Part shown: one piece after another, positions 4,907-16,948 of the stretch | Layout: the number at the start of each line of letters is the position of its first letter | Numbering within the stretch: the stretch's first letter is position 1 | Virus record (IMG/VR): IMGVR_UViG_3300044695_001173 | Location: 1-42,231 of that record | Reading direction: 5' to 3' (one strand) | Source of the DNA: a virus | DNA length: 42,231 nt | Program-made: the position numbers and the translations under genes | Notes under the pieces: generated by a model | The model's input: the letters and a program-made list of their open reading frames with translations, nothing else | Told to the model about the DNA's origin: nothing | Databases searched by the model: none

Positions 4907-5305
4907 GTGTTTACCTACACACCTATAAGATTTAATAACGATGACGGCGAAGCCGTGTACCGCACGTACATGTACGTGAATGACGGCGAGTACCACATCT
5001 ATGTCACGAGCAATCTCAAACGTGTCTTCACCGACGAGACGCTACCCGATGCTATCAAGGTCGCAGTGGGCATCATCAATGCCTACAACTGGGATGATCT
5101 AAACAAGTATTCACAGATGTTTATAAAGTCCAACGTGATCTGGTGCTTTGAAGATACATATCCAGAGGTACTAATAGACATTGGGTGGCGTAACGGCCAT
5201 GACTATTGTCTGGTCTTATACGCTAATCAATTACAAGATCTGAGAACGTCTGGTACGCAGCAGTTGAAACATGAACGCCTGACACTGTCAGAGGGAACCG
5301 CATGA
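4907..5305 (+). CDS. Hypothetical protein
   Basis: A 132-residue protein from a GTG start, supported by GAAGG nine bases upstream (4893-4897). An upstream ATG at 4888 is in another frame and gives only a 15-codon peptide, so GTG is preferred. The sequence is rich in aromatic and polar residues (several Tyr, Trp, Asn) with alternating strands and helices and no membrane segment. I recognise no domain. It overlaps the VRR-NUC gene by four bases (ATGA), so it is translationally coupled to it. Palindrome site 6 (5279-5291) lies near its 3' end. Confidence 0.65.
   Translation: MFTYTPIRFNNDDGEAVYRTYMYVNDGEYHIYVTSNLKRVFTDETLPDAIKVAVGIINAYNWDDLNKYSQMFIKSNVIWCFEDTYPEVLIDIGWRNGHDYCLVLYANQLQDLRTSGTQQLKHERLTLSEGTA
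5279..5291. promoter_or_regulatory. CTGAC-N3-GTCAG palindrome, site 6
   Basis: The same perfect 13-bp palindrome as site 2 (CTGACA-C-TGTCAG). Here it is read in a different codon phase from the other internal sites (L-T-L-S). It lies just before the ATGA junction with the VRR-NUC gene and overlaps the region of its ribosome binding site. Confidence 0.6.
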
Positions 5306-14927: not shown

Positions 14928-15182
14928 ATGCCTTATGTAAACAAGCCTCGTCCATACAAGCACGAGTACAAGAAGCAAGTCGAACGTGGTGAACACGAAG
15001 ATCGTATGGAGCGCCAACGCGCCCGACGATCCTACGACAAGAAAGGTATTAACCGAAAAGGTAAAGACGTTGCCCACGTAAAGGCACTGTCGAAGGGCGG
15101 TAGCAACGGGGACGGTACTAAGTTGCAGTCTCCTAGCAAGAACCGATCCTTCCCTCGTAAGTCTTCTGGTGCGATGAAATAG
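14928..15182 (+). CDS. HNH-like small basic protein
   Basis: An 84-residue, strongly basic protein. Its second half, KDVAHVKALSKGGSNGDGTKLQSPSKNRSF, follows the phage HNH pattern D-H...LSKGGSN...NL...NRSF, but the first D-H is A-H and the NL is KL. The central His and the final Asn-Arg are retained. It may be a small HNH nuclease with altered metal-binding positions, or a degenerate DNA-binding relative. It begins one base after the nuclease stop and is followed by a 173-base non-coding region. Confidence 0.6.
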   Translation: MPYVNKPRPYKHEYKKQVERGEHEDRMERQRARRSYDKKGINRKGKDVAHVKALSKGGSNGDGTKLQSPSKNRSFPRKSSGAMK

Positions 15183-15355
15183 TTCAGCGCAAGGCGTGAG
15201 TGCGTTGAACGGGGAGCCACCCTTCCCTGCGGAGTGACACCGCGAACCGCGTCAGTCGATGGCAAGTCCCACGCGTGCTATATCCATGGCACAGCCTCCA
15301 ACTTGGGCATCGACCGTCTAGCCCACGAGACGGGCTTTAATTAACAGGTACAGTT
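15183..15355 (+). promoter_or_regulatory. Structured intergenic leader before the helicase gene (attenuator or small RNA candidate)
   Basis: This gap holds no ORF. Candidate hairpins are GGGGA/TTCCC near 15210-15230 and GCGG/CCGC near 15228-15243. CAAGT (15263-15267) pairs with ACTTG (15301-15305), enclosing GTGC/GCAC. Near the 3' end three pairings compete: TGGGC (15304-15308) with GCCCA (15321-15325), CCGTCT (15314-15319) with AGACGG (15328-15333), and the terminator stem AGCCC/GGGCT. Mutually exclusive stems ending in a terminator are typical of attenuators and riboswitches, but no known class was recognised. All pairings were found by eye. Confidence 0.4.
15320..15343 (+). terminator. Weak intrinsic terminator at the end of the structured leader
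   Basis: AGCCC (15320-15324) and GGGCT (15332-15336) form a 5-bp stem with a 7-base loop, followed by TTTAATTAA. The stem is short and the T-run is interrupted, so termination would be partial. It lies 13 bases before the helicase ATG. Confidence 0.4.
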
Positions 15356-16948
15356 ATGAATATAGTAGAAAACCAAGCATTACAGTTCACAATTCCTTAC
15401 AACCTTGCAGACGAGATCTACTCTCACATAGACAAGTGCGAGATTAGAGAAGCACACGCTTTCGCTAAAAACGTTTTATTGTTTTGGGATCACAAAGAAG
15501 TGTCTATAGCATCGGCTATCCTCGACACCGCTCAACCCAATCCAAACTTACCGAAGCTGCCGTCACCGATACTGCGCGACTACAACTGGCCCGGTATCCA
15601 CCGCCCGTTCGAACATCAGAAAGATACGGCGTCGTTCCTGTCGGTGCGGCAACGTGCGTTCTGTTTCAACGAAGCCGGTACGGGCAAGACCTCCGCTGCC
15701 ATCTGGGCTGCCGACTATCTCATGGGGTTGGGCATCATCAAGAAAGTTCTTGTGATATGTCCTTTGTCGATTATGTATTCGGCGTGGCAGGCAGACGTAT
15801 TCAAGACCGCCATGCACCGCAGTTGCGCTGTGGCACACGGTAGCAGCGAGAAGCGTAAGAAGATTATTGAGAGCAACTACGATTTCACAATCATCAACTA
15901 TGACGGTACGCACGTAGTCTTCGATGAACTGCTTGCTGCCAAGTTTGATTTGATCATCATCGACGAAGCCAACGCATACAAGACGGCGTCAACAAAACGA
16001 TGGAAGACGTTGGCTAAATTACTTACGCCTGACACGTGGCTCTGGATGATGACAGGCACACCGGCATCGCAGTCACCGCTTGATGCGTTTGGTTTGGCGC
16101 GATTGGTTGCACCGCAGCGCGTACCGAAGTTCACTACTGCTTGGCGTGACAAGGTCATGTACCAAGTGACACGGTTCAAGTGGATGCCGAGGCCGACCCA
16201 CAAGGAAGACGTATTCAAAGCATTACAACCTGCGATCAGATACTCCAAAAAGGAATGTTTGGATCTGCCAGAACTTACTTATCAGACACGCATCGTGCCG
16301 CTCACGGCGCAAGTAGCCAAGTACTACAAAGAGTTGAAGCAACAACTTCTTATCGAAGCATCTGGTGAGCAAGTCTCCGCCATCAACGCAGCGGCATCGC
16401 TAAATAAACTTCTTCAGATCAGTGGCGGTGCGGTCTACACCGACAAGCAAAAGGTCATCGAGTTCGATGTTTCACCGCGACTCAATGCGTTAAAAGAAGT
16501 GCTTGAAGAAACGTCAAACAAGGTTGTAGTATTTGTTCCGTACATCCATACTATTGATGTAGTCACGAAGTTCCTAGCAGACGAAGGCGTTACGTGTGAG
16601 GTCATTCAAGGTTCGGTAGCAGCACAAGAGCGTTCAGAGATCATCAAGCGTTTCCAGACTTTGACTGATCCGCGAGTGCTTGTGATTCAACCGCAATCGG
16701 CAGCACATGGAATTACTTTGACGGCGGCAGACACGATTGTGTTCTGGTCGCCAGTGATGAGCGTCGAGACTTACTTGCAATGTATCGGGCGTATTGAACG
16801 AGTCGGGCAGAAGAACAAGATGACTGTTGTTCACCTGCAAGGCTCGGACGTTGAGAAGAAGATGTACTCCATGCTGCAAGGCAAGGTAGATAGTCATCAA
16901 AAAATAGTTGACCTGTACAGTAATGTACTCAGTGAGGATCTAGTATGA
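15356..16948 (+). CDS. SNF2-type superfamily 2 helicase/translocase
   Basis: A 530-residue SF2 protein with two RecA-like lobes. Seen in order are the Q-motif region (FEHQKD, Q88), Walker A NEAGTGKTS (105-113), motif II DEAN (203-206), motif III MTGTPA (232-237), motif V QSAAHGITLTAAD, and motif VI QCIGRIERVGQ near residues 476-486. The arginine finger pattern and the IERVGQ ending are typical of SNF2-like phage helicases, which translocate on duplex DNA and may act in branch migration or unwinding at forks. It follows a structured leader, which suggests separate control, and is followed within four bases by the next gene. Confidence 0.9.
   Translation: MNIVENQALQFTIPYNLADEIYSHIDKCEIREAHAFAKNVLLFWDHKEVSIASAILDTAQPNPNLPKLPSPILRDYNWPGIHRPFEHQKDTASFLSVRQRAFCFNEAGTGKTSAAIWAADYLMGLGIIKKVLVICPLSIMYSAWQADVFKTAMHRSCAVAHGSSEKRKKIIESNYDFTIINYDGTHVVFDELLAAKFDLIIIDEANAYKTASTKRWKTLAKLLTPDTWLWMMTGTPASQSPLDAFGLARLVAPQRVPKFTTAWRDKVMYQVTRFKWMPRPTHKEDVFKALQPAIRYSKKECLDLPELTYQTRIVPLTAQVAKYYKELKQQLLIEASGEQVSAINAAASLNKLLQISGGAVYTDKQKVIEFDVSPRLNALKEVLEETSNKVVVFVPYIHTIDVVTKFLADEGVTCEVIQGSVAAQERSEIIKRFQTLTDPRVLVIQPQSAAHGITLTAADTIVFWSPVMSVETYLQCIGRIERVGQKNKMTVVHLQGSDVEKKMYSMLQGKVDSHQKIVDLYSNVLSEDLV

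Follow-up and report, generated by a model that had tools for sequence, protein, structure and literature searches.

Comparative evidence for a pseudoknotted RNA family of uncultured phages

A structured RNA fills the gap between a gene for an 84-aa protein and a helicase gene in the replication part of the 42-kb virus record IMGVR_UViG_3300044695_001173, which was analysed over its whole length of 42,231 nucleotides (hereafter the window). Comparison with relatives supports the structure firmly, and the RNA represents a real pseudoknotted RNA family of uncultured phages that is so far uncatalogued. It is probably (roughly 60%) a stand-alone phage RNA gene acting in trans, and not the leader of the helicase gene that the first-pass annotation had read from the letters. 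The covariation is strong, yet there is no Rfam entry, and the relatives and the model make the RNA testable now. Structured RNAs of phages known from metagenomes only have been little explored.

Conserved fold and strand of the RNA

The features of the locus are listed in Table 1. As the comparative counts below show, the RNA has one fixed predicted fold consisting of P1, the pseudoknot, P2/P3, P4, and P5. The pseudoknot has 6 bp and joins the P1 loop to a segment 50 nt downstream. Within the P1 loop, the pseudoknot strand reads GGCRYG or a variant thereof and is flanked by 1 nt on its 5′ side and 2 nt on its 3′ side, and an A-rich run precedes the 3′ strand. The layout of P1 and the pseudoknot helix resembles that of a classical H-type pseudoknot, in whose long loop P2 and P3 would be inserted. 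P3 has a mean pair probability of only 0.22 and was not seen in some lineages. The mean pair probability of P4 is 0.98 for the lower arms and 0.90 for the upper arms. In P5, the four inner pairs hold in 100% of the cells in 95 sequences, three of these pairs being invariant, and CCC/GGG is present in all 95. By reading, the P5 loop is CGUAA or of the GNNA type, while more distant copies have GCUCC-CGUAA-GGAGC or ACUAC-CGUAA-GUAGU as P5.

Table 1. Positions of the predicted RNA, its parts, and neighbouring genes (window coordinates unless a locus is named)
Feature	Position	Strand	Basis or remark
PHROG 4590 gene, 84 aa, conserved, function not given by PHROG	14928..15182	+	Directly upstream of the RNA
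Whole structured RNA	15183..15342	+	Model match 15184-15342, 111.9 bits
Hairpin P1, arms 15183-15191 / 15201-15209, loop AGGCGUGAG	15183..15209	+	Fold and compensatory changes in relatives
Pseudoknot 5′ strand GGCGUG, inside the P1 loop	15193..15198	+	98.8% of cells paired; 27 double changes
Hairpin P2, variable, arms 15211-15216 / 15222-15227	15211..15227	+	Single-sequence fold; outside the covariation count
Hairpin P3, variable, GCGG 15229-15232 / CCGC 15240-15243	15229..15243	+	Sequence and alignment reading; outside the covariation count
Pseudoknot 3′ strand CGCGUC, AAC just before it	15248..15253	+	Comparative counts, folding
Hairpin P4, lower arms 15255-15261 / 15308-15314, upper arms 15263-15267 / 15301-15305 (CAAGT/ACTTG)	15255..15314	+	Folding, tree
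P4 tip, CU-rich, AGCCTCCA at 15293-15300	15268..15300	+	Complementary to GGAGGC-type ribosome binding sites of the same phage (weak)
Hairpin P5 (terminator stem of the first-pass annotation), arms 15320-15324 / 15332-15336, then TTTAATTAA	15320..15336	+	Conservation
SNF2-type DNA helicase gene	15356..16948	+	Directly downstream of the RNA
tRNA cluster of locus L134	L134:8790-9348		Downstream of the RNA

A helicase protein search of IMG/VR gave at least 80 loci. A first alignment (A1) was made with MAFFT from 30 rows out of the 45 listed. In A1, pairing holds in 94.9% of the 848 cells, and both sides have changed in 20 of the 29 pairs. The covariation score of A1 was not attained in any of 500 shuffles, and in slid controls 31–43% of cells pair; since the structure was read from A1, this comparison favours it over its slid versions. 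For a wider set, the covariance model R1 and DNA patterns were searched independently of the helicase, which gave at least 248 loci where the match extends over 100 nt or more. When copies trimmed differently were merged, these comprised at least 174 distinct sequences. In this count, several loci of one contig were taken as one only where the RNA was identical, and matches down to 12.5 bits (L259, E 0.17), fetched by a pattern of the P1 loop and the pseudoknot strand, are included.

A second alignment (A5) holds 96 loci (95 distinct rows) chosen for full-length, better-scoring matches, and leaves out the weakest or most divergent copies (L121, L134, L142, L143, L152, L167, L171, L231, and others). 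Across the 95 distinct rows, pairing holds in 94.4% of 2671 cells, as against 30–41% in slid controls, and 23 of the 29 pairs changed on both sides. The covariation score was 0.650, compared with 0.243 for shuffles and 0.06–0.09 for slid controls. These counts lean towards P1, P4, and P5, because A5 was fitted to those helices. The pseudoknot was outside the model that made the alignment, yet 98.8% of its A5 cells pair. On a tree of the helicase protein covering 90 of the 96 loci, parsimony gave 237 double changes in total (36 in P1, 27 in the pseudoknot, 160 in P4, and 14 in P5). The changes are thus repeated events, not a single inherited difference. G-U pairs are abundant in the aligned helices, with 49 G-U cells at one pseudoknot pair. 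Since these would read A-C on the opposite strand, the RNA strand is the plus strand. When the pseudoknot was compared with shuffles in five divergent lineages, all 200 were beaten only in L142; this test has little power, since it fails for accepted members too (L064, 16/200; L001, 75/200). The most divergent copies were assigned by model scores and layout.

Competing stems in the window

The first-pass annotation had described three mutually exclusive 3′ stems, and an upstream stem competing with the first of them, as an attenuator-like or riboswitch-like leader of no known class. All four stems are indeed present as letters (TGGGC at 15304 with GCCCA at 15321, CCGTCT at 15314 with AGACGG at 15328, AGCCC at 15320 with GGGCT at 15332, and CAAGT at 15263 with ACTTG at 15301). 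The exclusive arrangement did not survive comparison: TGGGC/GCCCA is complete in 1 of 30 aligned relatives and CCGTCT/AGACGG in 6 of 30. AGCCC/GGGCT and CAAGT/ACTTG are conserved (complete in 24/30 and 18/30 rows), not as competitors but as compatible parts of P5 and P4. Free-energy folding agrees for the latter two, with mean pair probabilities of 0.84 and 0.90, and not for TGGGC/GCCCA (0.0001) and CCGTCT/AGACGG (0.12). Forcing TGGGC/GCCCA costs 6.7 kcal/mol and forcing CCGTCT/AGACGG costs 1.6 kcal/mol. From the low pair probability, the forcing cost, and the lack of conservation of these two stems, the competition is chance lettering in the window phage. In a terminator scan, CCGTCT/AGACGG together with its T-rich tail was indeed picked, although at chance level (1 site, compared with 0.7 in shuffles).

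The idea of a structured RNA outside the known classes was borne out by the Rfam searches described below and by covariation, which is present and strong in the relatives; it lies in their conserved fold, whose main features had gone unnoticed: P1, the pseudoknot, and the lower arms of P4. The control of the helicase by an attenuator or riboswitch was not upheld, since the exclusive stems are not conserved and the RNA also occurs in places where it is unable to lead a helicase gene.

Gene neighbourhoods and distribution

Is the RNA a cis-acting leader all the same? It might regulate the next gene, usually the helicase gene, by termination at P5 or by a P4 tip that covers the ribosome binding site of the helicase. 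I regard this as unlikely, although the usual position speaks for it. Among the matches listed, the RNA is within 450 nt upstream of the helicase in 71 of 80 loci and absent from the gap in 9 of 80 (L051, L059, L063, L065, L071–L074, and L078). Also among the matches listed, the helicase start lies at most 70 nt from the RNA in 139 of the 174 distinct sequences; another 12 lie at 71–420 nt and 4 further away, while 9 have no helicase on the available downstream DNA (L240 only owing to an early contig stop) and 10 are at contig ends. Like an attenuator or riboswitch leader, the RNA is 5′ to a gene in most copies and ends in a potentially terminating hairpin. Unlike such a leader, it has one fixed fold with no conserved alternative and occurs without a downstream gene.

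The exceptions are of several kinds. In the 12 cases at 71–420 nt, a small ORF stands between the RNA and the helicase, the longest being 56–89 aa (that of L227 may be chance). In G008, the distance from the RNA (58.2 bits) to the downstream helicase is 4.7 kb, and the gap directly before that helicase is 4 nt. The RNA stands there behind a homologue of the 98-aa gene found at 5302 in the window. In L142, 15 nt separate the RNA (42.2 bits) from a downstream DNA polymerase gene (PHROG 17, E 1.7e-85), and the L143 RNA (40.9 bits) has a similar layout, judged by ORF likeness alone. Downstream of the L134 RNA (34.4 bits) are six tRNA genes according to ARAGORN (five according to Rfam), which are followed by a large terminase gene. 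In L152 (45.6 bits), all ORFs of at least 70 aa in the 1.8 kb downstream face the opposite way. The nearest convergent ORF, 86 nt on, matches transglycosylase/lytic tail families (best PHROG E 4.2e-12), and the second downstream ORF has no family match. Several exceptions to the helicase position still closely precede another gene. Thus, the RNA is not tied to one neighbouring gene, and it does not always lead its gene as an attenuator would (the convergent gene in L152, the tRNAs in L134, and the distant helicase in G008). The collected loci show that the predicted RNA occurs in many phages and in gene neighbourhoods of several kinds.

A membrane-protein-like ORF of 56 aa, by reading, lies between the RNA and the helicase in L010 (about 2818–2989), L076, and L291. 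A link of the RNA to the 84-aa gene was considered and rejected, because the RNAs of L106, L109, and L111 have no such gene alongside. The Pfam search of the 84-aa protein gave no match; its relatives in Planktothrix and Synechococcus phages carry an HNHc or Cas9-family annotation. A replication origin was also rejected, as the GC-skew turn is at about 21–22 kb, away from the RNA. No tRNA or tmRNA was found in a search of the window.

The RNA model was also run on 13 whole records, which include the nine picked for an empty gap and some fragments of 8–14 kb. Eight of the 13 had no match; thus, the RNA seems dispensable in some phages. Among named phages, blastn with the window RNA gave no match, and the L143 and L134 queries gave only fragments of 19–29 nt; the model had no match in the helicase/84-aa neighbourhoods of five named phages. 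Among prokaryote genomes, with each of 84,980 species represented once, the P5 pattern was found in six stretches: one has a full RNA (L267, 59.8 bits), four have P5 only, and one (L264, 24.5 bits) was judged by reading to be chance. L267 is the phage-like contig CAISKC010000272.1, binned in an uncultured Legionella MAG. It has ORFs resembling the polymerase, exonuclease, 84-aa protein, and helicase of the window, along with the RNA. The binning is either a weak hint at a Legionella host or an error.

Promoters and 3′ ends

Sigma-70 promoters were scored in 127 distinct upstream regions, a set without the rows unmatched by the loop pattern (L077 among them). Fifteen regions score at least 10 bits, a level reached by 1.5% of background windows; the median is 3.4 in both sets. 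This suggests a strong sigma-70 promoter just upstream of the RNA in a subset of lineages. Strong promoters were found in L125, L236, L232/L233, L011/L014, and others, and 6 of the 15 come from the L230–L256 lineage. By reading, the −10 box of L236 extends into the start of P1, which leaves the exact 5′ end uncertain there. In the window, no promoter-like site was found upstream of the RNA, which would thus derive from a longer transcript.

P5 is a GC hairpin that could act as a terminator, as a cis-acting leader might require, and a run of 4–6 T follows within 7 nt in 28 of 96 rows. However, the longest such run is only 1–3 in the other 68 of 96. Thus, a long U-run is not conserved, and P5 may end transcription in some phages. 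In L230, L231, and L235, a second conserved hairpin, GACTGAATGTG...CACATTCGGTC, was seen by reading within about 10 nt of the end of P5 and may be the real terminator.

The P4 tip and Shine-Dalgarno sequences

The P4 tip has a pyrimidine content of 68% and could be parsed in 146 of 198 sequences. At least 6 nt of the 16S rRNA 3′ tail occur in 26 of 56 non-redundant tips, compared with 7.4 in shuffles (sd 2.6, maximum 15 in 200). None of 300 shuffled 16S tails do as well, and the reversed tail scores 14/56. When tips were taken by alignment columns, 23 of 48 match the 16S tail against 5.6, while the P2/P3 zone taken in the same way has a smaller excess (10/42 vs 4.9) and the sense control gives 0/48.

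Does the tip match the start regions of its own phage? Of 38 own start regions, with start sites taken from simple ORF calling, 9 are matched by the window tip (AGCCTCCA) over at least 6 nt; 43 other tips average 3.5, and one of them does equally well. The duplex energies of the window tip were not significant (17/200 and 55/200). When own and swapped start regions were compared over 44 loci, 109, 1443, and 322 of 5000 permutations did as well at 5, 6, and 7 nt, which is a weak signal. The corresponding numbers for a 13-locus subset are 620, 167, and 66 of 5000. The window start sites at 445, 1406, 2537, 3794, and 10834 have common GGAGGC ribosome binding sites, complementary to AGCCTCCA.

A second point in favour of a cis-acting leader comes from the helicase start. 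At 5 nt or more, 21 of 37 tips match their own helicase start, against 14.1 when swapped (45/5000 permutations, uncorrected for kinship). A looser filter gave 35/61 vs 22.1 (1/5000), and a stricter one 7/10 vs 3.9 (134/5000). No such signal was shown by the six other genes tested. If real, it would speak for a role of the tip in cis. However, at 6 nt the same 37 tips give 1093/5000, and the match by duplex energy was rejected at 257/5000.

Returning to the stand-alone RNA, the following mechanism can be proposed. A small structured RNA of about 110–180 nt would work as a molecule of its own. It would be made from the replication region, by its own promoter in some lineages and, in others including that of the window, probably by read-through plus processing. 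It may then act in trans: the open, CU-rich P4 tip, resembling the 3′ tail of 16S rRNA, could pair with the Shine-Dalgarno regions of messages from the phage or its host, thereby tuning their translation. P1 with the pseudoknot, and P5, may protect the RNA or dock a protein. I take such antisense pairing of the tip in trans to be the likeliest mechanism, but as a step it is tentative and no more than possible. The fuller version is more doubtful still: it would be a new class of pseudoknotted phage RNA, present in several lineages, that captures Shine-Dalgarno sequences by imitating the 16S tail and so reprograms translation. In this version, P5 would be a docking block in its own right, which other phages also use alone. 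If the RNA does act on Shine-Dalgarno sites, phages would thereby have a general means of steering ribosomes.

The P5 block and comparison with known RNA classes

In Rfam 15, the window had no match at the gathering score, and at E up to 10 just two chance matches on the minus strand, outside the RNA. Among the RNAs of relatives, none of 5 matched at E up to 10 and none of 12 at the gathering score. A literature search found no description of the RNA. Fremin and colleagues reportedly published a large set of phage structured RNAs in 2023, in which it may be listed without a name.

The arrangement of P1 and the pseudoknot recalls pistol. According to PMC4604425, the loop of the P1 hairpin of pistol pairs with a segment beside the next stem, and P2 encloses the pseudoknot strand and P3. 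The phage RNA likewise has a P1-loop pseudoknot beside a stem, and it occupies an intergenic site between genes on the same strand, where a self-cleaving ribozyme or RNA-processing signal of this layout could cut the polycistronic message. Yet an enclosing P2 of this kind was not visible on inspection of A5, Rfam gives no pistol or other ribozyme match, and the additional P4 and P5 are conserved and covarying, beyond a small catalytic core. A ribozyme is therefore very unlikely.

P5 has also been found apart from the rest of the RNA. A block of linker and P5, CGACTRRCCCCCGTAAGGGG, exists without the remaining RNA in L122/L158, L130, L133, L138, L163, L192, L217, L218, L224, and L225. It directly follows another small hairpin in L130, L133, L163, and L192, and in L224 it lies, by reading, just past a promoter-like sequence. 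P5 may have a role of its own, and its recurrence alone in other phages points to a partner. Could P5 be a decoy or anti-CRISPR RNA that titrates a host protein by imitating the hairpin of a CRISPR repeat, or some other protein site? The solitary block would fit, and the P5 core CCCCGTAAGGGG of many relatives is also present in a type III repeat of Thermus thermophilus. As CCCC-GNRA-GGGG is an ordinary stable hairpin, however, the shared 12-mer may be convergence. The letters of P5 vary (GCUCC and ACUAC stems in relatives, CCCACGAGACGGG in the window), and the CRISPR repeat families of Rfam have no match to the plus strand of the window RNA. The RNA anti-CRISPRs (Racr; PMC10651486) are likewise phage RNAs in which a short GC hairpin resembles some CRISPR repeats, while the RNA described here is about 160 nt in length, pseudoknotted, variable in P5, and without a matching repeat family. 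This explanation has, in my view, only a slight chance of being right, a little below that of a ribozyme.

A coding or decayed gene remnant, which the first-pass annotation had considered, or a chance structure can practically be dismissed: the window region folds alone no better than shuffles (z −0.95; 34 of 200 equally good), so that one sequence is unable to settle the question, but the covariation rejects a remnant, no plus-strand ORF of at least 60 aa is found in the gap between the 84-aa gene and the helicase gene, and the gap before the helicase is variable in length (139–188 nt in many relatives).

The stand-alone, trans-acting RNA favoured here has some precedents. PreS of lambda and VpdS of VP882 are phage-encoded trans-acting sRNAs of about 88 and 50 nt (PMC12197685). 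They resemble the present RNA as small RNAs of a phage genome linked to replication, and message pairing is proposed here as well. The present RNA differs in its conserved pseudoknot, its covarying helices, and its occurrence in many uncultured phages, and it is known from sequence alone. In PMC2864571, manA and wcaG are reported to occur in cyanophages, and STAXI is described as a tandem pseudoknot near DNA-handling genes. All three are structured RNAs from comparative genomics, like the present one. STAXI differs in its tandem arrangement, and neither the window RNA nor those of its relatives matched any Rfam family. Finally, the 330 nt that follow the RNA in L227 (from about 5248) and precede the helicase contain, by reading, a unit in two copies whose arms resemble ACAAGTATGAGGATTGCAA and AGTCCTCATTCTTGTTGGTG, and this repeated unit is perhaps another structured RNA.
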